Below are positions 46,125-57,560 of a stretch of DNA of 64,000 nt, in pieces (positions within the stretch are counted from its first letter, which is position 1; the number at the start of each line of letters is the position of its first letter). The position numbers were made by a program, and so were the translations under genes. The notes under the pieces were generated by a model. That model searched no databases and was not told the DNA's origin. It was given only the letters and a program-made list of their open reading frames with translations. The stretch is from Devosia sp. SL43 (GTDB taxonomy: Bacteria; Pseudomonadota; Alphaproteobacteria; Rhizobiales; Devosiaceae): NCBI RefSeq assembly GCF_021729885.1, contig NZ_CP063401.1:3712501-3776500 (forward strand). The letters run 5' to 3'.

Positions 46125-47933
46125 TCAGGCGTTGCGGGAGCTGAGATAGGCACGCCAGCCGCCAAAGCCGGTAATGTCCTCGGCGCCGGCAAGTGCGTGG
46201 GATTCGCACAGAAAGCCTGAGACCGCCGTGCCGTCGTCCAGGGCCACCTTGCCGATACCCAGCGGCGATGGAATGCGGGCGACGAACTGCCCGAAGGCAG
46301 CCGGCGGCAGCTCCCAGACTTCGACGGCAATTCCGGGTCCGGCATAGCCCGGTTCGCGAATAAGGCCCGGCTTGGGCGGCGTCGTGTTGGGCAGGGCAAA
46401 GAGCCTGTAGTCATTGGCCGTGCTGCATGTCTTGAGCAGCCTCCCGCCCGGACCGGTCAGTTCCTTGTTCAGCGGCATGCCAGTAAGGTGCGCGCCGACC
46501 ACGACAATCTGCACCATCTCGCTCGCGGCGGCGGGCACTGTACTTGCCGCCGGCAAGGCTGCTGCCTTGTCGCGACCCATACCGCGCGCCGCCTTGCGAT
46601 GGAGCGCATCTGCCAATGGCGCCAGCGCATCATCGGTAAAGGCCGGGGCGACGAGTGTGACGCCAGCCGGCAGGTGATCCTGGCCGTCGAAGCCGCCGGG
46701 GATAGCGATGGCGGCGCAGTCGAGCAGGTTCGCAAAATTGGTGTAGCGGCCGAAATGCGAGTTGAGCCGGATAGGGTCGGCCTGCATGGCTTCCACGGTG
46801 TAGGTGGTGGGCGAGGTCGGCAGCAGCAGCACGTCGGCCTTGGCCCAGGTGGCTTCAGTCTTACGGCGCAGTTCTTCCAGCCGGTACCTGCCCTTAAAGG
46901 CCTCGACCGCCGTCTTGCCCTTGGCGCCCGCAATGATGGTACGCACCGTCGGATCGAAGTCGGCTTCGTTGCTGGCAAAGAAATCTTCCACGGCGGCCAG
47001 GCGTTCGGCGACCCAAGGGCCGTCGTAGAGCAGGGCTGCCGCTTCGCGGAACGGGGCATAGTCGAAGGGAACCACCGTTGCGCCAAGGGCGCGGATGTTG
47101 TCGATGGCGGCGTCATAGAGCCGTTCGACCTCGGCATTGCCGAAGAATTCGCGTTCGGCGCCATAGAGCACACCAACGCGCAGCCCCGATGTCGGCAACG
47201 ACGCCCATTTGGCTTTGCGCGAGAACGGATCAGCCGCATCGAAGCCCTCCGCCACCCTACGGGCGGCCACGCCATCGCCCACCGTGGCGGCGAAAATGGT
47301 AACGCAATCAACGCTCTTGCAGGCCGGCACAACGCCAGTATTGGGCAGCAGTCCCGGCGTCGGCTTGATGCCGACCAGGTTGTTGAACATGGCGGGTACA
47401 CGACCGGAGCCAGCGGTGTCAGTGCCGAGCGAGAAACTGGCGAAGCCGGCGGCGACGGAAACTGCAGAGCCGGAGCTAGAGCCGCCTGAGACATAGGCCG
47501 GATCGAACACCGAACGGGGCGCGCCATAGGGCGAGCGGGTGCCGTTGAGGCCGGTGGCAAACTGGTCGAGATTGGTCTTGCCGATGACGATACCGCCGGC
47601 TGCCTTGAGGCGCGCGACGACGGTCGCGTCGGCGGCCGGATCATAGGCGAAGGCAGGGCAGGCGGCGGTGGTGGGCAGTCCCGCCACGTCGATATTGTCC
47701 TTTACTGCGAACGGGATACCCCAGAGCGGCAGGCTGTTGGGCTCGGGGTGTTGCTCCATCAGCGCATCGGCGGTGGCGAGCAGGGCGGCGTCGCTGGTGG
47801 GGGTGATGAACACGGCCTTGTCCGGCCAGGCGGCGCGGCGTTCGATGACCGCTTCCATCACGTCGCGGGGGGTGACGCTGTGATCGGCATAGAGTGCCCG
47901 GAGCGTTGCGAGATCGAGGATGGTGGGCAGCAT
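46125..47933 (-). CDS. atzF: allophanate hydrolase
   Basis: The 602-aa protein has an amidase-signature domain (~1-450) with the Ser-cisSer-Lys set: Lys in FAVKDNIDVAGLP, GGSSSGSAVSVAAG and GTDTAGSGRVPAMFNNLVG. The C-terminal AtzF-type domain is QIVVVGAHLTGMPLNKEL and GIAVEVWELPPAAFG. Allophanate is split to ammonia and CO2. Size matches AtzF (~605 aa). It overlaps the carboxylase stop by one base, as the last gene of the guanidine operon. It could also serve biuret breakdown from the operon at 56.3 kb. Confidence 0.95.
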   Translation of the reverse strand: MLPTILDLATLRALYADHSVTPRDVMEAVIERRAAWPDKAVFITPTSDAALLATADALMEQHPEPNSLPLWGIPFAVKDNIDVAGLPTTAACPAFAYDPAADATVVARLKAAGGIVIGKTNLDQFATGLNGTRSPYGAPRSVFDPAYVSGGSSSGSAVSVAAGFASFSLGTDTAGSGRVPAMFNNLVGIKPTPGLLPNTGVVPACKSVDCVTIFAATVGDGVAARRVAEGFDAADPFSRKAKWASLPTSGLRVGVLYGAEREFFGNAEVERLYDAAIDNIRALGATVVPFDYAPFREAAALLYDGPWVAERLAAVEDFFASNEADFDPTVRTIIAGAKGKTAVEAFKGRYRLEELRRKTEATWAKADVLLLPTSPTTYTVEAMQADPIRLNSHFGRYTNFANLLDCAAIAIPGGFDGQDHLPAGVTLVAPAFTDDALAPLADALHRKAARGMGRDKAAALPAASTVPAAASEMVQIVVVGAHLTGMPLNKELTGPGGRLLKTCSTANDYRLFALPNTTPPKPGLIREPGYAGPGIAVEVWELPPAAFGQFVARIPSPLGIGKVALDDGTAVSGFLCESHALAGAEDITGFGGWRAYLSSRNA

Positions 47934-50900
47934 CAGATTTCCTCCAGCACGACGACAACATCGCCGGTCTTGACGTTTTTACCAGGTCCGGCAAGGACTT
48001 GACGGACCTTGCCAGCAGCTTGTGCGGTGATGGTGATTTCCATCTTCATGGATTCGATGATGGCGACGGCTTCGCCTTCGGCCACAGTGGCTCCATCCTC
48101 GACCAGAATCTTCCAGATGTTGCCGGGAACGCCGGTGGGTACGCCAAAGCATCCCACGGGGATATCGCCTTCGATGGCGCTGTTGCCGGCGTCGTCGGCG
48201 ATGAAGCTGTCAAGGCCTTCGGCCTTCCAGCGATTGCGCTCGGCGTCGAACGCAGCCTGCTGGTTGGTCTTGAAGGCGGCGATACTTGGGGCATTGGCCG
48301 CCAACTCCCGGGCGTAGTCGGCGTAGGAGAATTGTGTCTCCTCAATGCGCAATGGGTAGGCGCCGTGCGGGAAGGCGGCACGGGCTTCGGTGAGCTCGTC
48401 ATGACTGACAGGGAAGAACCGGATCTGGTCGAAGAAGTTCAGCAGCCACGGCTTGCCCGGCGTGAATTCCGGCGTGGACCGCCACGTATTCCAGACCTGG
48501 ATGGTGCGGCCGAAAAGCTGATATCCGCCAGGGCCTTCCATGCCATAGACACACATATAGGCGCCCCCGATCCCCACCGCATTTTCCGGCGTCCAGGTGC
48601 GGGCCGGATTGTATTTGGTGGTCACCAGCCGATGGCGCGGATCGACCGGCGTCGCCACGGGCGCGCCGAGATAGACGTCGCCCAGGCCGAGCACCAGATA
48701 GCTCGCGTCGAAGATCGTCCGCTTCACATCTTCGATGCTGGAGAGGCCGTTGATGCGGCGGATGAACTCGATATTGTCGGGGCACCACGGCGCGTTGGGG
48801 CGCACCAGTTCCTGATATTTTCGCATGGCCAGCTGGATGTCAGGGTCGTTCCACGACAGTGGCAAATGCACGATGCGGCTGGGGACAACGACGTCCTCGG
48901 CGGCGGGGAGAGATTTTTCTATCTCCGCCAGCAGACCGAGCAGGCGGGTGCGCGACAGCGTGGTGCCATCGTAGTGGATCTGCAGCGAACGGATGCCGGG
49001 AGTCAGGTCGATCGGCGCAAGCATGCTGGAGGTCTTGGTCAGCGCCTCCATTAACAGGTGGACACGCAGCCGCAACGCGATGTCCAGCGACATGTCGCCA
49101 TACTCGACGAGCAGGTTGTCGTCGCCTTGACGGCGATAAACGACAGGCACCGGACCATCGTCGGATCGCGCCAGGATCGCTGAGCCGGTTTCAAGATTCG
49201 GACGGTGGATGGCAGGTCCGGCGATGGGATCGTCGGGGCGGGCGACCGGATGGAAGCGGATGGTGTCGCCGGGTTTGAACTGGCCCATCTTCCAAAGCTC
49301 ATCGCGGGCGATCACCGCCGGGCAGACGAAACCGCCCAAACTCGGGCCATCCGGGCCGAGGATGATCGGCATGTCGCCGGTGAAGTCGATGGCGCCGATG
49401 GCGTAGGCATTGTCGTGGAGGTTGGACGGGTGAAGCCCGGCTTCGCCGCCATCCGTGCGGGCCCATTGGGGGGCGGGGCCGATCAGGCGGACGCCGGTGC
49501 GGGCGCTGTTGAAATGGACTTCGTAGTCGGTGGCGAAGAGGGTCTCGATATCGCCATCCTGGAAGAAGTCTGGCGCCCCGTGGGGGCCGTAGAGCACGCC
49601 GACATCCCAGTGGCGGGTGAGGGGCGCGGGGTCGGTGGCGGGTTGGACGGTCTTCTGCGCCGAACGGGCGAGATGCAGCACTTGCCCAGCTTTGACCGTG
49701 CCGGTGGCATGGCCACCGAACTGGCCGAGGCCAAAGGTGGCGCGGGAGCCCAGGACAACCGGGGCGGCAAAGCCGCCGGAGACGGCGAGGTAGCTGCGCT
49801 GGCCGGGGCCGTCGACGGCGCCGATGGCAAGGGTCTGACCGGCAGTCACGCTGATAGGCGTGTTATGCGCGACCGGGGTGCCATCAAGCTTCATCGGCAT
49901 CGCCGCGCCCGACAGGGCGATGGTCACCGGGGCGTGGAAGCGCAGGGTCGGACCGGCGACGGTCAGTTCCAGCGCAGCGGTGACGTCGGCATTGCCCACC
50001 AGCCGGTTGGCGTGGCGAAAGCTGTAGTCATCCATCGGCCCACTGGGCGGCACGCCGACATGCCAGAGGCCCAGGCGACCTGGGAGTTCCTGGATGCTCG
50101 ATTGCGCCCCGGGGGCGATGACTTCCACCACATCGGGGATGAAGAGGAAGTCCTTCAGTGCCGTGGTGGCCACCTTACCGCTGGCGAGGAGGTCCGAGCC
50201 GGCGATGGCACGGAGATAGGCGAGGTTGGTCTCGATGCCCGCCACCGATGTCGCCTTCAGCGCAGCCCGCAGATTGGCGATGGCCGTCGGGCGGTCGATG
50301 CCGGCGACGATAATCTTGGCCAGCATCGGATCGTAATAGGACGTTACCTCGGTGCCAGTCTCAATCCAGCCATCGACGCGGACATGGTCCGGGAATTTGA
50401 CTTCGGTCAGGAGGCCAGCGCTCGGTCTGAAGTTGGCATGCGGGATTTCGGCATAGAGCCGGACTTCGATGGCGGCGCCATGCGGGGTGAGCGGACCGGC
50501 CTTGGCGATTGGGTCTTCCCCGGCGGCCTGGCGGATCATCCACTCGACGAGATCGATGTTGAACACTGCCTCGGTGACGGGGTGCTCGACCTGCAGGCGG
50601 GTGTTTACCTCGAGGAAGTAGAAGTCCTCGCGGACGGGGTCGTAGATGAACTCCACGGTGCCGGCCGACGCGTATTTGACAGCCGAGCCGAGATCGGTGG
50701 CCGCCTTGTGCAGGCGGGTGCGGACCGCGTCGGAGAGGCCGGGTGCAGGGGTTTCCTCCACGACCTTCTGGTTGCGGCGCTGCAGCGAGCAGTCGCGTTC
50801 GCCAAGGGCGATAACCTTGCCTTTGCCGTCGCCGAAGATCTGCACTTCGACATGGCGGGCGTCGGAGACGAAGCGCTCGATATAGACGCGGGCATCGCCG

Positions 50901-51472
50901 AAACTTGATGTCGCCGTGCGCTGCACGCTGTCGAAGGCGGCCGATAGTGCCGCGGCGTCGGCGCAGAGCTGCATGCCGATGCCGCCGCCACCAGCCGTGC
51001 TCTTGAGCATGACGGGATACCCGACAGTCTCGGCAGCAGCGAGGGCTTCCTCGGCGCTATTGAGCAGGTTGGTGCCGGGCAGTAGCGGCACGCCGCTGGA
51101 TTTGGCCAGTTCGCGGGCAGTGTGCTTGAGGCCGAAGGCTTCGATATTTGCGGGTGTCGGGCCGATGAAGGTGATGCCGGCTTCGGCAAGGCGCTGGGCG
51201 AAGCCGATATTCTCGCTGAGGAAGCCATAGCCGGGATGGACGGCCTGGGCGCCGGTCGCCTTGCAGGCGGCGATGACTGCGTCGACATTGAGGTAGGACT
51301 CGGTCGCCGGGGCAGGGCCGAGCCGCACGGCTTCGTCGGCCAGCGAGACTGCCTTGGTGAAGCGATCGGCGTCGGAATAGACGGCGACGCTGGCGATGCC
51401 CATGCGACGCAGGGTCTTGATGATACGCACGGCGATTTCGCCGCGATTGGCGATGAGGACTTTGCTGAACAT
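47933..51472 (-). CDS. biotin-dependent guanidine carboxylase (urea carboxylase family)
   Basis: The 1179-aa protein has a biotin carboxylase/ATP-grasp part (~1-450; KVLIANRGEIAVRIIKTL, STAGGGGIGMQLC, FLEVNTRLQVEHPVTE). A carboxyltransferase part of the KipA/KipI type (~470-1080; GPMDDYSFRHANRLVGN, GPDGPSLGGFVCPAV, YGMEGPGGYQLFGRTIQVW) and a C-terminal biotinyl domain with AIIESMKMEI (Lys ~1143) follow. The family is usually named urea carboxylase. The guanidine-I riboswitch and the two associated proteins show that guanidine is the likely substrate, giving carboxyguanidine. Kinetic proof would need the protein. Confidence 0.92.
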   Translation of the reverse strand: MFSKVLIANRGEIAVRIIKTLRRMGIASVAVYSDADRFTKAVSLADEAVRLGPAPATESYLNVDAVIAACKATGAQAVHPGYGFLSENIGFAQRLAEAGITFIGPTPANIEAFGLKHTARELAKSSGVPLLPGTNLLNSAEEALAAAETVGYPVMLKSTAGGGGIGMQLCADAAALSAAFDSVQRTATSSFGDARVYIERFVSDARHVEVQIFGDGKGKVIALGERDCSLQRRNQKVVEETPAPGLSDAVRTRLHKAATDLGSAVKYASAGTVEFIYDPVREDFYFLEVNTRLQVEHPVTEAVFNIDLVEWMIRQAAGEDPIAKAGPLTPHGAAIEVRLYAEIPHANFRPSAGLLTEVKFPDHVRVDGWIETGTEVTSYYDPMLAKIIVAGIDRPTAIANLRAALKATSVAGIETNLAYLRAIAGSDLLASGKVATTALKDFLFIPDVVEVIAPGAQSSIQELPGRLGLWHVGVPPSGPMDDYSFRHANRLVGNADVTAALELTVAGPTLRFHAPVTIALSGAAMPMKLDGTPVAHNTPISVTAGQTLAIGAVDGPGQRSYLAVSGGFAAPVVLGSRATFGLGQFGGHATGTVKAGQVLHLARSAQKTVQPATDPAPLTRHWDVGVLYGPHGAPDFFQDGDIETLFATDYEVHFNSARTGVRLIGPAPQWARTDGGEAGLHPSNLHDNAYAIGAIDFTGDMPIILGPDGPSLGGFVCPAVIARDELWKMGQFKPGDTIRFHPVARPDDPIAGPAIHRPNLETGSAILARSDDGPVPVVYRRQGDDNLLVEYGDMSLDIALRLRVHLLMEALTKTSSMLAPIDLTPGIRSLQIHYDGTTLSRTRLLGLLAEIEKSLPAAEDVVVPSRIVHLPLSWNDPDIQLAMRKYQELVRPNAPWCPDNIEFIRRINGLSSIEDVKRTIFDASYLVLGLGDVYLGAPVATPVDPRHRLVTTKYNPARTWTPENAVGIGGAYMCVYGMEGPGGYQLFGRTIQVWNTWRSTPEFTPGKPWLLNFFDQIRFFPVSHDELTEARAAFPHGAYPLRIEETQFSYADYARELAANAPSIAAFKTNQQAAFDAERNRWKAEGLDSFIADDAGNSAIEGDIPVGCFGVPTGVPGNIWKILVEDGATVAEGEAVAIIESMKMEITITAQAAGKVRQVLAGPGKNVKTGDVVVVLEEI

Positions 51473-51476
51473 CGGC

Positions 51477-52067
51477 TCAGTCCGAAATCACGACGCGGAT
51501 CGGCGTCGGGTTGAAGCCGTTGCAGGGATTGTTGACCTGCGGGCAGTTGGAGATGACGCAGAGGACGTCCATTTCGGCGACCATTTCGACGTGGTCGCCG
51601 GGGGCGGAGAGGCCGTCGACGATGGTCATCTGACCGGAGGGTTCGATCGGCACATTCATGAAGAAGTTGATGTTGGGGACGATGTCGCGCTTGGACATGC
51701 CGTGCTTGGTGACTTCGAGCACGAAGTTGTCCCGGCAGGCGTGCAGGTACTTGGTGTCGTGGCCGAAACGGACCGTGTTGCTCTCGCACGAGCAGGCGCC
51801 GGCGGATGTGTCATGCCGGCCGCAGCTATCGGCGGTAACTGTCAGCATCACATTGCCTTCGTTGCTGACGATTTTGGTGCCGAGCCCGACATAGGCATTG
51901 CCGTTGACCCGCAACGTGTCCTGGCCGGAATAACGTTCGGAGTAGTCGTCGGCCTTGTAGAACAGCGTGTCGATGGCCTGCTGGCCCTCGCTGTCGATGA
52001 TGCGGATGGTCTGGCCCTTGCGGACGATGCCGGACCAGGGCTTTTCGGCGGGGATGAAGTGTTCCAT
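51477..52067 (-). CDS. carboxyguanidine deiminase subunit, UAAP2 type (DUF1989)
   Basis: The 196-aa protein is the second urea-carboxylase-associated protein: HFIPAEKPWSGIVRKGQTI, DIVPNINFFMNVPIEPSG, AEMDVLCVISNCPQVNNPC and FNPTPIRVVISD. Cysteines at ASAGACSCE-like and SNCPQ positions may bind metal. In characterised guanidine operons the UAAP1/UAAP2 pair (CgdA/CgdB) deiminates carboxyguanidine to allophanate. It lies 4 bp before the carboxylase and 12 bp after the UAAP1 gene. Confidence 0.9.
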   Translation of the reverse strand: MEHFIPAEKPWSGIVRKGQTIRIIDSEGQQAIDTLFYKADDYSERYSGQDTLRVNGNAYVGLGTKIVSNEGNVMLTVTADSCGRHDTSAGACSCESNTVRFGHDTKYLHACRDNFVLEVTKHGMSKRDIVPNINFFMNVPIEPSGQMTIVDGLSAPGDHVEMVAEMDVLCVISNCPQVNNPCNGFNPTPIRVVISD

Positions 52068-52079
52068 TTTCGTCTCCCC

Positions 52080-52880
52080 TCAAGCCAGCTGCATGGCGTT
52101 GTTCTCGAAACCGCGAACGGCTTCGGCTGTGGCGGTGCGGCACAGATCGTCGGCCGCGATAGACGTTCGGAAGCGGGTCACGGTGACGGGCTGCGGTGCG
52201 TAGGTGGGGCTCGGATCGAGCGGATGCGGGCAGTTGGAGAAGGCGACGATGAGGTCCATCTCGGCGCGCAGCTCGACATTGTCGCCGGCAACCCGGAGAT
52301 CGTCGCGCCAGATGAAGTTGCCGTCGGCATCGACCCGGACGGGGGCGAAGAGGGTCAGCGCCGAGGGGATGTCGCGGCGGTCGAGGCCGAGCTTGGTGGC
52401 GACGAGGATGAAATTGTCGCGCGTATTCCTGAAGTCGCCGGAATATTTGGCGGCGTTCGACGCAACGGTGGAACCGCCGACCAGAGCATCATGCGCGGTG
52501 GATGCGGCTTCGGTGACCGAGAACAGCACGCGGCCCATATCGGTGAACAGTACCCGGCCCTTGGCGATGGCGGTGGTCCACTGCACTTTGACGGTATCGG
52601 GCAGGTTGAGGCGCTCGCTCGTATCGGTTGCAGACCAGGCGATCAGCGACACGGCGGATGGACCATCGTCCTGCGCGATGCGAATGGTGTCACCGGCCTT
52701 GAGGCTGGTCGACCAATACCAGCCACCGGGGATGGTCTCGACATGGACCGGATCAGCGATGTGCGCAGCGGGGACTGTACTCGGGCCGGGCAGGGCCTTG
52801 GGCGCATTCTGCAATCCCTTGCGCTGGTGTTCCTCGTAGCGCGCGCGATCGGCGGCGATCTGTTCGGGGGTACGGCTCAT
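52080..52880 (-). CDS. carboxyguanidine deiminase subunit, UAAP1 type (DUF1989)
   Basis: The 266-aa protein is the first urea-carboxylase-associated protein: VETIPGGWYWSTSLKAGDTI, IPSALTLFAPVRVDADGNF, AEMDLIVAFSNCPHPLDP and a C-terminal AVRGFENNAMQLA. It shares the DUF1989 fold with its neighbour and should form the heteromeric carboxyguanidine deiminase with it, releasing ammonia. Its start overlaps the end of the ATPase gene by 4 bp. Confidence 0.9.
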   Translation of the reverse strand: MSRTPEQIAADRARYEEHQRKGLQNAPKALPGPSTVPAAHIADPVHVETIPGGWYWSTSLKAGDTIRIAQDDGPSAVSLIAWSATDTSERLNLPDTVKVQWTTAIAKGRVLFTDMGRVLFSVTEAASTAHDALVGGSTVASNAAKYSGDFRNTRDNFILVATKLGLDRRDIPSALTLFAPVRVDADGNFIWRDDLRVAGDNVELRAEMDLIVAFSNCPHPLDPSPTYAPQPVTVTRFRTSIAADDLCRTATAEAVRGFENNAMQLA

Positions 52881-53701
52881 GGCAAAGAATCTCCTTGTGG
52901 CGCCGGGTCGTCCTGGCTGAGGCCCAAGGGAATGACCGGGTCGTCCCGGTCGGGGGCAAAAATGGAAGGCTCACCGGCAATGCGCGGCGGCCAGATATCG
53001 ATGTCGCGGCTGAGCAGCGCTCCATAGCGCTCGCGCTCCTCCGGCCGGTCGCGCGGGCGCTCGAAGGCGATGACGCGGGTGCCGAGGGTAAAGGCTTCGC
53101 GCATGTCGTGGGTGACCATGACCACGGTCAGTTCGGTCTCGTGCCACAGGCGCTTCATCAGCACGTGGATTTCGGCGCGGATGCCCGGATCGAGCGCCCC
53201 GAACGGCTCGTCGAGCAGCAGCACCTTCGGCTTCATGATCAGCGCCTGGGCGAGGGCCAGACGCTGCTGCATGCCGCCGGAGAGCTGGGCGGGGTATTTG
53301 GTCTCGGACCCCGCGAGGCCGACCTCGGCGATGAGTTGCATGGCCTCATCGACCGCATTGCGGCGGGCGGCGCCGAATAGCCGCGCGGCGACGGGGCTCT
53401 TGAACTCCTTGCCGAGCAGCACATTGCCCAGGACGGTCAAATGCGGGAACACCGAATAGCGCTGGAACACCACGCCGCGATCAGGGCCCGGCTCGGCGAT
53501 GAGCGGCACGCCATCCATGGTGATGGTGCCCTGCGTCGGCGCTTCTTCGCCCAGCAGCATCTTGAGGAAGGTGGTCTTGCCGCAGCCGGAGGGGCCGACC
53601 AGGGCCACGAAGGCACGTGAGGCAATGGTCAGGCTGATTTTCTCGAGGACGATCTGGTCGCCGTACTCTTTCCAGACCTTGTCGAAGACGATGGTGCTCA
53701 T
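52877..53701 (-). CDS. ABC transporter ATP-binding protein (guanidine importer)
   Basis: The 274-aa protein has Walker A GPSGCGKTTFLKML, signature LSGGMQQRLALAQAL, Walker B KVLLLDEPFGALD and switch TVVMVTHDMREA. It belongs to the nitrate/taurine (NrtD/SsuB-like) group. It overlaps both neighbours (1 bp with the permease, 4 bp with UAAP1), so the transporter and enzymes are made together. The substrate guanidine is inferred from the riboswitch. Confidence 0.93.
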   Translation of the reverse strand: MSTIVFDKVWKEYGDQIVLEKISLTIASRAFVALVGPSGCGKTTFLKMLLGEEAPTQGTITMDGVPLIAEPGPDRGVVFQRYSVFPHLTVLGNVLLGKEFKSPVAARLFGAARRNAVDEAMQLIAEVGLAGSETKYPAQLSGGMQQRLALAQALIMKPKVLLLDEPFGALDPGIRAEIHVLMKRLWHETELTVVMVTHDMREAFTLGTRVIAFERPRDRPEERERYGALLSRDIDIWPPRIAGEPSIFAPDRDDPVIPLGLSQDDPAPQGDSLP

Positions 53702-54516
53702 CAGCGCGCCCCCAGATTGGACCAGGGGAAGACCGAGATGCGCAGGCGATCGAGGGCGAAGTTCGTCAGCACGGCGAGCAGCGTGATCCAGGCCACATAG
53801 GGGAAGATCACGTCCATCGACAGGTAACGGCGGACGAGGAAGATGCGGTAGCCGAGGCCGCTATCGGCTGAAATGGCCTCGGCGGCGATGAGGAACAGCC
53901 ACGCGGGGCCCAGTTGCAGCCGCAGGCAGGTGATGAGGCGCGGCAGGATTTGTGGCAGCACCACGCGCAAAGCAATCTGCCAGGAGGAGCCGCCCAGCGT
54001 TTCCGCCTTGGTGATCTGCTCCTTGGGCAGTTCGATGACGCGCAAAGCCAGGTCGCGGATCATCGCGGGGGCGACACCGATGACGATGAGGGTGATCTTG
54101 GCGGTCTCGCCGAGGCCGAGCACGATGAAGAGGATGGGCAGCAGCGCCAGCGGCGGCACCATGGAGATGGTGGCGATGAACGGCGCCAGCAGCGCGCGGA
54201 CGTAGGGCAGCATGCCTACCACCATGCCGAAGACGAGGGCGATTAGGGTGGAAATGCCGAGCGCGGAGAACAGGCGGGCCGCGCTGGCGCCGGTGTCAGA
54301 CCACAGGATGTATTCGCCGGTGCGCTGGTCGGGGATGAAGGCCATGCGGTTGACGGCATCGACCATGCTCTGCAGCGCCGGCAGCAGCTTGTCGCTGGGG
54401 TTTTCCGCCAGCCGCGCCGCCGAGCCGACGCCATAGGCGATGACCAGCAGCACGAACGGGGCGAGCATCAGGGCCGTGGTGACGGCCGGAGATGGTTTGG
54501 TGTTGATCCAGCGCAT
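53701..54516 (-). CDS. ABC transporter permease (guanidine importer)
   Basis: The 271-aa protein has six membrane helices and the binding-protein-dependent permease motif, here EQITKAETLGGSSWQIALRV followed by VVLPQILPRLI, which contacts the ATPase. It is of the taurine/nitrate permease type. It lies between the binding protein and the ATPase genes. Confidence 0.92.
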   Translation of the reverse strand: MRWINTKPSPAVTTALMLAPFVLLVIAYGVGSAARLAENPSDKLLPALQSMVDAVNRMAFIPDQRTGEYILWSDTGASAARLFSALGISTLIALVFGMVVGMLPYVRALLAPFIATISMVPPLALLPILFIVLGLGETAKITLIVIGVAPAMIRDLALRVIELPKEQITKAETLGGSSWQIALRVVLPQILPRLITCLRLQLGPAWLFLIAAEAISADSGLGYRIFLVRRYLSMDVIFPYVAWITLLAVLTNFALDRLRISVFPWSNLGAR

Positions 54517-54566
54517 GGATGGAGCTCCGCGAACGGGGCCGGCGGCGAGCCGCCGGCCAGTGGGCG

Positions 54567-55640
54567 TTACAGAGCGCCGTCGGCGGCCAGCTGCATGTAT
54601 TCCGCGGTAAACCGCAGCTTCACGTTGGCGCTGTCGCCCAGCACCGTGCCGTCGGGCAGTTCGATGCCGATGATATCGGCCGAAGGCGCGCCGGAACCGA
54701 GCAGGCCCTTGTCGAAGAGGAAGGTGCGGACCTTGTCCATGGTGGTGCTGAGGTCTGGCGAGGTGGTGAAGGCCACCGCTTCCGCCGGGGTCGGGAACAG
54801 CTTGGTAGCGGCGAGCTGGGCTTCGAAGCCGGCCTGGTCGGTGCCGGAGGCGACGCCCATGGCTTCGCGGGCCGCAGCGCCTTCTGGCGTATCGGATGTC
54901 ATGACGGCCATCGTGTCATACCAGATGCCGGCCAGCGCCTTGCCGAAGTCCGGATTGGCTTCGAGCACTTCGGTATTGGCCACCATCATATCGATGATTT
55001 CGCCGGGGATCTGAGCGCTGTCGAAGGCCTTGGTGGCGTCGGGGAGAGCCAGGATTTCCGAGACCATCGGGTTCCAGGTGACCATGGCGGTGACGTCGGC
55101 GGTCTGGAACGCGCCGACCATATCGGGGTCGGAGGTGTTGATCACGTTGACGTCGCGCTCGGTCATGCCGACGCTTTCGAGCGCCCGTGCCAGCAGGTAG
55201 TGGCTGACGGAGAATTCGACGAGGTTGACGTTCTGCCCCTTGATCGAGGCCAGATCGCCCGCGCCCTTGAGGATCACGGCGTCATTGCCGGCCGAGAAAT
55301 CGCCGATGATGACGGCGGTGGTGTCGACGCCACCGGCGGCGGGGATGGAGAGGCCATCCATGTTGGTCAGCGTCACCGCGTCATAGGCGCCGGCGGTGTA
55401 TTGGTTCATCGACTCGACGTAGTCGTTGAACTGGGTGACCTCGATGGTGATGCCATACTGGTCGGCCCACTTCTTAACGATGCCAGCGTCGGCGGCATAG
55501 CCCCAGGGCATCCAGCCGACATAGATGGACCAGGCCACCTTGAAGTCGGTCTTGGCCTGCGCCAAAGCGAGACTTGAGGTGCCCGTGGCCAACGCCAGCG
55601 ACATGGCGGTGAGTGCTGCGAATTTGGTCAGAAACGTCAT
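54567..55640 (-). CDS. ABC transporter substrate-binding protein (guanidine importer)
   Basis: The 357-aa protein has a signal peptide (KFAALTAMSLALATGTSSLALA, with cleavage near AQA-KTD) and a TauA/SsuA/NrtA-like fold: VGWMPWGYAADAGIVKKWAD, VTQFNDYVESMNQYTAGAYD, NLVEFSVSHYLLARAL and VTAMVTWNPMVSEI. It is the first gene of the operon, 26 bp after the riboswitch terminator's T-run. AAAGGGGAA precedes the ATG at 55640. A Trp- and Asp-rich binding region would suit a planar cation, but that is inference. Confidence 0.9.
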   Translation of the reverse strand: MTFLTKFAALTAMSLALATGTSSLALAQAKTDFKVAWSIYVGWMPWGYAADAGIVKKWADQYGITIEVTQFNDYVESMNQYTAGAYDAVTLTNMDGLSIPAAGGVDTTAVIIGDFSAGNDAVILKGAGDLASIKGQNVNLVEFSVSHYLLARALESVGMTERDVNVINTSDPDMVGAFQTADVTAMVTWNPMVSEILALPDATKAFDSAQIPGEIIDMMVANTEVLEANPDFGKALAGIWYDTMAVMTSDTPEGAAAREAMGVASGTDQAGFEAQLAATKLFPTPAEAVAFTTSPDLSTTMDKVRTFLFDKGLLGSGAPSADIIGIELPDGTVLGDSANVKLRFTAEYMQLAADGAL

Positions 55641-55665
55641 CTCAATTCCCCTTTGCGTCATTCAC

Positions 55666-55703
55666 AAAAAGGGATTGGGCAGAAACCATCGCGCCAATCC
55701 CTT
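55666..55703 (-). terminator. riboswitch-controlled intrinsic terminator
   Basis: On the minus strand AAGGGATTGG, an 18-nt spacer region and CCAATCCCTT with three more T bases form a 10-bp hairpin plus T-run directly downstream of the guanidine-I aptamer and upstream of the SBP gene. Guanidine binding would be expected to prevent its formation, so the switch works by transcription attenuation. Confidence 0.85.
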
Positions 55704-55707
55704 GGCT

Positions 55708-55820
55708 ATCGAGGTCTCCCGGGCTTTTGTCCCGCCGTGCGTCCGGCCGGATGTCTCCCGCCCGGTGGTAGCTCTCGGACCAGACGCGCCACGCGGCGCC
55801 GGAACCCTAGCCCCTTACTC
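55708..55820 (-). promoter_or_regulatory. guanidine-I riboswitch (ykkC RNA, subtype 1)
   Basis: Read on the minus strand, the RNA carries the three most conserved ykkC blocks in order: GGGGCTAGGGTTCCGG, then TCTGGTCCGAGAGC, then GGCGGGACAAAAGCCCGGG with AGAC following. GC-rich helices join them, as in the known aptamer. The ligand is free guanidinium. It lies 68 bp before the SBP start codon, is followed by a terminator, and is preceded within a few bases by a sigma-54 promoter. This is the main evidence that the operon handles guanidine. Confidence 0.96.
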
Positions 55821-55831
55821 GGCCTTTACAG

Positions 55832-55847
55832 AGCAAATCACGTGCCA
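55832..55847 (-). promoter_or_regulatory. sigma-54 promoter of the guanidine operon
   Basis: The minus strand reads TGGCACGTGATTTGCT, an exact fit to the -24/-12 consensus TGGCACG-N4-TTGCW, with GG and GC separated by 10 bases. Transcription should start ~12 nt past the GC, near 55821, which is the 5' edge of the guanidine-I aptamer. This agreement between two independent signals makes the call strong. It implies RpoN plus an enhancer-binding activator such as NtrC. Confidence 0.85.
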
Positions 55848-56255
55848 ATTGGGATCGCTTTTAAAATCAACGAGTTAGGTTGATATCGGCAAATTTGGCA
55901 TGCGCAATTTGTGGGCGCGCTACTGAGTCACTGATGATTTTTTAGGCGAACCTGCGAATCTGCTTGCGTCGCTCGCTCCGGACAAAACCGCTGCAAACCG
56001 GCGTTTTAGGGCGAGTATTGACGTCCCTTGAGAGCGAATGACACTCGAAACAGTGGATTGAGGTGAGCTGGGAGCGACCGTCGACGATCGTTGTATGCAA
56101 TCCATGACTGATTGCCTAACTAAAGTGCATATTGGCAATGGTGGTGCAGATTTTGAGCAAGCCTGCTCGGTTCATTTGAATCCAGCCCAACCCGGTCTGT
56201 TGTTAACAGTTTGTTATCAAAGGACATTTCCGCAGACCCTTCCGCCGCCTCACAC
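55848..56255. other. control region between the two divergent nitrogen operons
   Basis: The ~408 bp between the two sigma-54 promoters hold no convincing gene and are less GC-rich than the surroundings. It has room for upstream activator sites for both sides. Visible candidates are an inverted repeat at 56097-56115 and TGGTGCA (56142-56148), equal to one half of the NtrC consensus, ~108 bp upstream of the rightward promoter. Confidence 0.5.
56097..56115. promoter_or_regulatory. inverted repeat, possible activator or repressor site
   Basis: GCAATC-N7-GATTGC is a perfect 6-bp dyad with 19 bp overall. It stands ~140 bp upstream of the rightward sigma-54 promoter and ~250 bp upstream of the leftward one, normal distances for enhancer sites. 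The factor is unknown. Confidence 0.4.
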
Positions 56256-56271
56256 TGGCATGTGCCTTGCA
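56256..56271 (+). promoter_or_regulatory. sigma-54 promoter of the BMP-transporter/amidohydrolase operon
   Basis: TGGCATGTGCCTTGCA fits the -24/-12 pattern TGGCAYG-N4-TTGCW, with GG (56257-56258) and GC (56269-56270) 10 bases apart. The start of transcription should be near 56282, giving a ~45-nt leader before the ATG at 56327. Together with the leftward promoter it puts both operons under RpoN. Confidence 0.8.
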
Positions 56272-56326
56272 TCGTATTTCCCGACGCCGCCAGGAAGGCG
56301 CGTTTCTCGGTGCAGGGAGCTCGTCA

Positions 56327-57430
56327 ATGTCGCTTATCAATCTTTCCCGCCGCTCAGTGCTGAAGGCCGGCGCCGCCGGCCTGGCCGCTGCGGCGCTACC
56401 CATGGGCCTGGCCCGGGCGCAATCCCCCATCGTGCTGGGCGCCGTCTATGTCGGCCCGCGCGATGACTTCGGCTGGAACCAGGCACATGCCACAGCCATG
56501 GAAATTCTCAAGACCGTGCCCGGCGTGACCGTCATCGAGGAAGAGAACGTTCCAGAGACCGATGCCGTCAGCCAGTCGATGGAATCGATGATCAACCTCG
56601 ATGGGGCCAACCTGATCCTGGCCACCTCCTTCGGTTACTACAGCCCGTTCGTCGTCGAACTGGCCAAGAAATATCCCGATGTGCAGTTCCGCCATGCGGC
56701 GCCGCTGTGGAAGGAAGGCGACCCGACCAATGCGGGCTCCTATTTCTGCTACCTCAACCAGGGTCACTATGTGGACGGCGTCGCCGCCGGTCTTTCGAGC
56801 CCGACCGGCAAGCTCGGCTTCGTTGCCGCCAAGCCGATCCCGTCGGTGCTGTCCAACATCAACTCGTTCCTGCTCGGCGCCAAGAAGACCAACCCGAACG
56901 CGACGGTCCAGGTGATCTTCACCGGCGAGTGGTCGATGCCAGTCCGCGAGGCCGAAGCCACCAATGCGCTGATCGATGCCGGTTGCGACGTCATCACTTG
57001 CCATGTCGATGGTCCCAAGGTGGTGGTGGAAACGGCCGAAGGTCGCGGCGTCAAGACTTGCGGGCATAATGCCAGCCAGGCGCCGCTCGCCCCGAACGGC
57101 TTCATCACTGGCGCCGAATACAAGTGGTCGACCATCTACGCCATGTATGCCGACCTCCTCGCCAAGGGTGAGCCGCTGCCGAACTTCGTGGCCGGCGGCT
57201 ATCACAATGACATGCTGCAGAACACGCCCTATGGCGCGGGCGCCACGCCCGAAGCCATCACGGCGGCCGATGCGGCGATTGCCGACCTCAAGGCGGGCAA
57301 GCCGATCTATGTCGGCCCGCTCAAGGACAATGCCGGCAATGTCGTCATCGAAGGCGAGATGGACAACTATGATCCGGTGCTCGACGGCATGAACTACCTG
57401 CTCGAAGGCGTGGTCGGGTCCATTACCTGA
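56327..57430 (+). CDS. BMP family ABC transporter substrate-binding protein
   Basis: The 367-aa protein has a Tat-like signal (SRRSVLKAGAAGLAAAALPM, cleaved after ARA). The basic-membrane-protein fold of nucleoside/purine-type importers follows: GAVYVGPRDDFGWNQAHA, ILATSFGYYSPFVVELAKKY, GHYVDGVAAGLSS and ITGAEYKWSTIYAMYADLL. A twin-arginine pair suggests export in folded form. The ligand is unknown. The operon context suggests a small amide, biuret-like compound or nucleobase. GGGAGC precedes the ATG. Confidence 0.92.
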   Translation: MSLINLSRRSVLKAGAAGLAAAALPMGLARAQSPIVLGAVYVGPRDDFGWNQAHATAMEILKTVPGVTVIEEENVPETDAVSQSMESMINLDGANLILATSFGYYSPFVVELAKKYPDVQFRHAAPLWKEGDPTNAGSYFCYLNQGHYVDGVAAGLSSPTGKLGFVAAKPIPSVLSNINSFLLGAKKTNPNATVQVIFTGEWSMPVREAEATNALIDAGCDVITCHVDGPKVVVETAEGRGVKTCGHNASQAPLAPNGFITGAEYKWSTIYAMYADLLAKGEPLPNFVAGGYHNDMLQNTPYGAGATPEAITAADAAIADLKAGKPIYVGPLKDNAGNVVIEGEMDNYDPVLDGMNYLLEGVVGSIT

Positions 57431-57451
57431 TCGAAGTCTGGCGCAAGCTGG

Positions 57452-57560
57452 CCCCCACCTAACCTCCCCCTGAAGGGGGAGGGACAGATCGGGGCCAGCC
57501 AGGAATCGCGCCACGTCAACCGAACGGTTCCTCCCCCTTCAGGGGGAGGCTAGGTGGGGG
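57452..57560. repeat. 109-bp palindromic element inside the operon
   Basis: The arms CCCCCACCTAACCTCCCCCT (57452-57471) and its inverse at 57541-57560 match at 19 of 20 positions. Each arm continues into its own hairpin, CCTCCCCCT-GA-AGGGGGAGG type. The build is like the 5413-5555 element but the sequence differs. It fills the gap between the binding-protein gene and the first permease gene and may reduce read-through, giving more binding protein than permease. Confidence 0.8.

Follow-up and report, generated by a model that had tools for sequence, protein, structure and literature searches.

The guanidine operon and its leader

The window, meaning the whole 64,000-nt stretch of the Devosia sp. 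SL43 genome analysed here, contains a minus-strand operon whose first gene encodes a substrate-binding protein and which continues with genes for an ABC permease and ATPase, the two DUF1989 proteins UAAP1 and UAAP2, a urea carboxylase family protein and an allophanate hydrolase (Table 1). The carboxylase is read as acting on guanidine, not urea, because of the riboswitches at this locus and the operons described in the consulted parts of PMC12186494 and PMC12508155. A Guanidine-I aptamer lies in the leader, and a second riboswitch of the Guanidine-II class lies within the operon, at the end of the ATPase gene and directly 5' of the UAAP1 gene. Promoter motif, aptamer, terminator and operon, together with the conservation described below, are established by the sequence.

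Table 1. Features of the guanidine operon and its leader, in window coordinates.
Feature	Position	Strand	Basis or remark
Candidate NtrC palindrome CGCCCACAAATTGCGCA	55917-55901	minus	9/10 match to TGCNCA-N5-TGNGCA; -24 element 53 nt downstream
Sigma-54 -24/-12 element TGGCACGTGATTTGCT	55847-55832	minus	12/12 to TGGCACGN4TTGCW, GG and GC exact
Predicted +1	55821	minus	12 nt past the -12 C (55833), by counting
Guanidine-I riboswitch aptamer (RF00442; predicted guanidine binding)	55821-55714	minus	Rfam, 71.6 bits against a cut-off of 63
Putative antiterminator hairpin GCCAA-GGGA-UUGGC	55706-55693	minus	Inferred; 5' arm common with the terminator
Intrinsic terminator, stem and U run	55703-55666	minus	Fold -18.9 kcal/mol, z -3.7
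Substrate-binding protein (TIGR03427), first gene of the operon	54567-55640	minus	
ABC permease	53701-54516	minus	
ABC ATPase	52877-53701	minus	
Guanidine-II riboswitch (RF01068), internal	52903-52952	minus	34.7 bits against a cut-off of 32
DUF1989 protein UAAP1 (TIGR03425)	52080-52880	minus	
DUF1989 protein UAAP2 (TIGR03424)	51477-52067	minus	
Urea carboxylase family protein (TIGR02712)	47933-51472	minus	Guanidine carboxylase by context
Allophanate hydrolase (TIGR02713)	46125-47933	minus	

A divergent operon encodes a Bmp-family binding protein and a CN_hydrolase, with putative permease-like ORFs between them. A sigma-54-like element, TGGCATGTGCCTTGCA, lies at 56256-56271 on the plus strand, 55 nt 5' of its likely ATG at 56327, and 8/10 matches to the palindrome of Table 1 occur nearby at 56113-56129 and 56143-56159. 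The intergenic region between the two operons may be a common nitrogen-control hub.

Promoter element and predicted start

An earlier note on this DNA had described a perfect -24/-12 element, a predicted start at about 55821 at the aptamer edge and a strong terminator, and the coordinates of all three stand. The element agrees at every position with TGGCACGN4TTGCW, the sigma-54 consensus as quoted in the consulted part of PMC2573895; its exact string TGGCACGNNNNTTGCW occurs once in the 64-kb window, with a mean of 0.01 in 100 shuffled windows. The Rfam Guanidine-I match opens at this predicted +1. The terminator ends in five U, and 0 of 200 shuffles fold as well; it is absent from the list of a simple terminator scan, probably because its loop exceeds the limit of 8 in that scan.

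Genome-wide, the looser pattern TGGCNCGN4TTGCW has 18 matches and its reversed form has 6. Of these 18, 17 overlap with ORFs of at least 100 aa on either strand, so the motif alone proves little. The case for a promoter is carried by the motif's place and its conservation. RpoN is encoded in this genome (PF04552, E 9.4e-67). Elsewhere in the same genome (C1:1279402-1279417), an exact TGGCACGTCCTTTGCA stands 41 nt 5' of a gene judged by eye to be UrtA-like, which is consistent with a sigma-54 nitrogen regulon.

Conservation upstream of Guanidine-I riboswitches

RF00442 was searched in 101 genomes (the Devosia genome and its relatives) and in 397 phylum-wide genomes, two sets that overlap, and the 200 nt upstream of all 107 matches were scored, a motif being counted at 10/12 or more with GG and GC exact. 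This search for -24/-12 motifs 5' of other ykkC RNAs, proposed in the earlier note, found the element at 83 of the 99 leaders above the Rfam cut-off, where about 1.5 are expected from dinucleotide shuffles. By relatedness, the element is present in 1/1 leader of the genome itself, 22/22 of the same genus, 11/15 of the same order, 1/8 of the same class and 48/53 of the rest of the phylum, and element-bearing leaders occur in 22 of the 27 families. Since the sampled leaders are related, these counts overstate independence: a single family (f81) supplies 27 of the 99 leaders and 27 of the 83 bearing the element.

Four motif controls, namely two displaced windows, the reversed motif and the opposite strand, scored 0/107 each across the full set of leaders. 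TPP riboswitch leaders carry the element in 1 of 30 cases (30 loci out of more matches, from 46 RpoN-bearing genomes of the same set), so sigma-54 elements are not general to riboswitch leaders. Guanidine-II leaders carry it in 0 of 30 (30 of 51 matches, from a different draw of 199 genomes chosen regardless of RpoN), so it is not a feature of every guanidine riboswitch; Guanidine-III gave one match, below the cut-off, among the 199 genomes. Among the Guanidine-II control leaders, some are followed by ORFs of about 104-107 aa, which would match SMR exporters in size, and others by carboxylase or UAAP genes. The genes downstream of most Guanidine-I leaders are related to the transporter or UAAP genes of the window operon. 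Five genus-level leaders precede ORFs of 479-496 aa, of which the four tested are family-5 solute-binding proteins.

Sixteen of the 99 leaders lack the motif at threshold, and 11 of these are in RpoN-bearing genomes: two are narrow misses at 9/12 (L022, L104) and the others clear misses (L045, L076, L090, L097, L098, L106, L112, L118, L121). L098 and L112 precede an arginase-family gene and an amino-acid permease, not an operon-type transporter; the arginase-family gene of this pair is possibly a guanidinase. Eight of the 107 matches scored below the Rfam cut-off and were treated separately; one of them has the motif, and seven precede no relative of the operon genes, but mostly ORFs of about 285-300 aa. 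We assume that these seven resemble ykkC subtype 2 RNAs.

A second sample, which has some genomes in common with the first, was picked by the transporter protein only, blind to riboswitch and promoter: an alignment of 15 transporter proteins was used to scan genomes and gave 576 relatives, the best 80 of which were taken as named loci. The aptamer was recognized by pattern in 67 of the 80, with the element present in 55 and absent in 12. Eleven of the remaining 13 were run through Rfam, which detected Guanidine-I in 10 (two just below the cut-off); seven of these 10 leaders have the motif, 11-14 nt from the aptamer. At a locus on a Sinorhizobium fredii GR64 plasmid (L267), the aptamer start string lies 5' of the transporter gene, and the 200 nt upstream contain no -24/-12 core. 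Together the two samples support the view that the arrangement is common in Proteobacteria and is not an oddity of the Devosia genome.

Aptamer, terminator and switch

In the lowest-energy fold of the whole leader, GGCUA (55812-55808) pairs with UAGCC (55708-55704) beside the terminator. This fold is weak (z -1.6, 11 of 200 shuffles as good), as is that of the aptamer alone (z -0.57); mutual exclusion of aptamer and terminator is a prediction of folding. UAGCC overlaps the hairpin GCCAA-GGGA-UUGGC, formation of which would block the terminator; we regard this hairpin, with low confidence, as a putative antiterminator. Its exact string is found in 22 of the 99 leaders: that of the window, 17/22 of the genus, 3/6 of family f23 and 1/6 of family f51, and none elsewhere. 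In its place L045 has GCCAG-GAA-CUGGC, a paired change. The impression from leaders of other classes (L052, L053, L061 and similar ones) is that often a GGAGG site is preceded by CTCCTG-like strings and a U run is missing. From this impression, many of them may be under translational control.

Candidate activator site

A palindrome, TGCNCA-N5-TGNGCA, was derived by aligning ten leaders from the genus of the window, and the leader studied here has a candidate site of this type. A TGCACC-N5-GGTGCA site had been sought in the window, where the best match reaches only 9/12, and the alphaproteobacterial palindrome was taken instead. In the first sample, with the motif-deriving leaders included, 17 of 36 alphaproteobacterial promoters score 9-10 of 10, compared with 0/36 controls. 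Among 49 named alphaproteobacterial promoters, a set that excludes five gamma loci, two Devosia loci, 11 leaders below 9/12 and the 13 loci without aptamer pattern, 28 reach at least 9/10 and 21 do not, compared with 0/147 control windows. A spacer of 5 accounts for these 28 promoters, whereas every other spacer from 0 to 11 gives 6 or fewer, and permuted palindromes give a mean of 0.3 and a largest value of 4. Distances from the palindrome to the -24 element in the 28 promoters are 42, 51, 62-63, 71-73, 80-85 and 97 nt, which by eye lie near steps of 10.5 bp, as for sites on one helix face. At gene RL_RS27275 of Rhizobium johnstonii 3841, the element scores 12/12 and a 9/10 palindrome is found at 72 nt upstream.

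P-II genes provide a comparison, with 28 gene loci from 14 genomes. The sigma-54 motif (at least 10/12) precedes 14/14 first copies and 0/14 second copies, and seven of these 14 promoters have the palindrome at 9-10 of 10, 86 or 106-107 nt away. One of the seven is the P-II leader of the Devosia genome itself (TGCACAAATCTTGTGCA, 10/10 at 107 nt). All seven are in the window's genus, in which two more reach 8 and two reach 7; three Rhizobiaceae P-II loci score 7 or less. As it recurs at seven of the 14 P-II sigma-54 promoters, the palindrome points to NtrC. Outside the Alphaproteobacteria, the NtrC-type site TGCACY-N5-RGTGCA is found at 10/12 or more upstream of 25/49 promoters (control 1/49) and GCAC-N7-GTGC in 10/49 (control 0); the respective counts at alphaproteobacterial promoters are 1/36 and 0/36.

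Apparent loss of the element together with RpoN and the NtrC loop

All 76 genomes in which RF00442 has matches were searched for Sigma54_DBD, which scored above cut-off in 69. The motif is present in 83/94 above-cut-off leaders from genomes with RpoN compared with 0/5 from genomes without it, a thin contrast as all five leaders belong to one family, f51. The sixth leader of this family, in a genome with two divergent RpoN copies (G425), also has no motif. NtrC was checked in 12 regions, of which two (L279, L280) are NtrX-like, leaving six of eight f51 genomes informative. The NtrC candidates of these six (L273-L278) have no GAFTGA, whereas GAFTGA is present in 4/4 comparison genomes (two of f1, one each of f23 and f48); the f48 genome (G132) lacks the motif at threshold though its NtrC carries GAFTGA. 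Families f51 and f23 are probably Rhodobacteraceae and Rhizobiaceae, respectively. The named loci L184, L187, L188, L194, L197 and L218, which we take to be Rhodobacteraceae, some of them by title, have the motif in 0/6. These observations recall the deletion spanning GAFTGA in NtrC of Rhodobacterales and the function of Rhodobacter capsulatus NtrC with sigma-70, both reported in the consulted part of PMC10274813. From the f51 losses, it therefore appears that riboswitch and transporter are kept when the promoter type disappears along with the machinery it needs.

These data bear on which activator and which sigma factor serve the leader. The Devosia genome encodes an NtrC (TIGR01818, 672.5 bits) with GAFTGA (L269), and NtrC is the likely activator, judging from the sites upstream. 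Use of sigma-54 with another enhancer-binding protein, so that the first input would not simply be nitrogen status, is unlikely but deserves the most weight among the alternatives: the NtrC model has 51 matches in this genome, only one of them above the cut-off, so other activators exist, and 21/49 named alphaproteobacterial promoters are without the palindrome at 9/10. Against this stand the same palindrome at half of the P-II sigma-54 promoters, that of the own genome among them, the NtrC-type sites at 25/49 promoters of other classes, and the loss of the f51 promoter alongside GAFTGA.

NtrC with sigma-54 is also preferred over a housekeeping sigma-70 promoter as the chief source of the transcript, with the -24/-12 element as a minor or conditional start. 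In f51 and the named Rhodobacteraceae the riboswitch persists in leaders lacking the element, which indicates that the switch can use another promoter; the 11 leaders without motif in RpoN genomes also count for this reading. In the window, however, a simple scan found no sigma-70-like site in 54000-57500 (weak evidence, with 0.7 expected by chance). All 35 motif-bearing alphaproteobacterial leaders (the window's own, 22 of the genus, 11 of the order and one of the class) have CTAGGG 10-13 nt downstream of the predicted +1, a narrow spacing consistent with the -12 element fixing the start. A sigma-70 origin is thus highly improbable, a weak sigma-70 promoter further upstream being possible. 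From the same spacing, the alphaproteobacterial RNA is predicted to start at the aptamer edge. In the 48 leaders of other classes the predicted +1 lies 25-84 nt before CTAGGG, and because of this variability the motif is not part of the aptamer. That the match is no promoter at all is scarcely credible: the motif adjoins a conserved RNA to which it could owe its conservation, but the variable spacing in other classes speaks against this, a chance string is ruled out by the mean of 0.01 per shuffled window and the zero-scoring displaced, backward and opposite-strand controls, and the TPP, Guanidine-II and named-locus counts also contradict both. The earlier note's reading of the element as sigma-54-dependent is therefore supported by conservation across families, the controls, co-occurrence with rpoN and a palindrome common to several P-II leaders.

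Proposed mechanism

Very probably, the leader integrates two inputs, a sigma-54/NtrC start and a guanidine-gated terminator. Under nitrogen limitation, phosphorylated NtrC, the activator that we infer, would bind the palindrome upstream and open sigma-54 RNA polymerase at the -24/-12 element, and RNA would start at about 55821, directly at the aptamer. In the absence of guanidine, GGCUA in the 5' strand of P1 would pair with UAGCC, allowing the terminator to form and stop transcription. When guanidine is present, the aptamer would form, and ligand-bound P1 would release UAGCC for the GCCAA-GGGA-UUGGC antiterminator, so that polymerase would read into the operon for guanidine uptake and carboxylation. 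AND logic is predicted from the layout of promoter, aptamer and terminator, and the sequence supports such a putative gate well. The genes for using guanidine as a nitrogen source thus appear to require both nitrogen shortage and guanidine, here and in the majority of the switch-bearing relatives examined.

More generally, it is probable that Proteobacteria by default control guanidine assimilation through a sigma-54/NtrC start followed by guanidine-dependent attenuation, with the 5' end locked to the aptamer edge in Alphaproteobacteria and with loss of RpoN or the NtrC loop dropping the promoter while the riboswitch stays. If true, this ties a conserved and widespread riboswitch class to an enhancer-dependent promoter. 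In physiological terms, guanidine would then serve these bacteria as a nitrogen source under shortage of better ones, and not be chiefly a toxin for export. The leader would be a ready natural AND gate, and family f51, probably Rhodobacteraceae, a natural experiment on a riboswitch changing promoters.

Comparison with known systems

The earlier note knew of no described RpoN-driven guanidine riboswitch, and none was found in the titles and abstract starts searched, mostly outside the subscription literature, where no paper joins RpoN to this riboswitch. Term searches gave zero occurrences of sigma, NtrC and RpoN in the review PMC12186494, of sigma54, RpoN, NtrC and promoter in PMC11410670, of NtrC and RpoN in PMC12508155, and of ykkC in PMC2573895, PMC2245857 and PMC2864759.

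COG3665 is presumably the DUF1989/UAAP family of the window operon. In the closest prior statement, consulted in part, a predicted Pseudomonadota sigma-54 regulon includes 102 COG3665 'urea carboxylase' genes, sigma-54 regulated in the alpha, beta and gamma classes (PMC12316311). As guanidine is absent from the main text of that paper and the sole occurrence of riboswitch is in its reference list, the dual leader appears to have gone unnoticed there. A suggestive experiment is that on rpoN mutants of Bradyrhizobium DOA9, in which atzF, which may or may not belong to a guanidine operon, and other urea genes are strongly down (PMC13207237, consulted in part). RpoN-dependent transporters are named in P. 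phymatum, guanidine not being among them in the consulted part of PMC5979394. In the V. boliviensis proteome, the operon is up on guanidine compared with ammonium (PMC12508155, in the part consulted), a result compatible with either a single input or two. Two inputs may be mixed in guanidine-ammonium comparisons of this kind.

The window operon resembles known Guanidine-I (ykkC) carboxylase operons in its RF00442 aptamer and downstream transporter, UAAP1/2, carboxylase and allophanate hydrolase genes. Like the V. boliviensis operon as described in the consulted part of PMC12508155, it has a Guanidine-II switch inside, and Guanidine-II also lies 5' of carboxylase or UAAP genes in other genomes. 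It differs from the known ykkC carboxylase operons in its conserved predicted RpoN/NtrC promoter, none being named for them in the literature searched. The promoter in turn resembles the NtrC/sigma-54 promoters of nitrogen-scavenging genes (P-II genes and urtA), with a -24/-12 element at nitrogen genes; the UrtA-like gene of the same genome has an exact element and an 8/10 palindrome. Unlike the P-II and urtA promoters, this one is predicted to feed into a ligand-dependent attenuator within its own leader. Both halves of this control are known, whereas the literature searched appears to contain no description of their conserved coupling.
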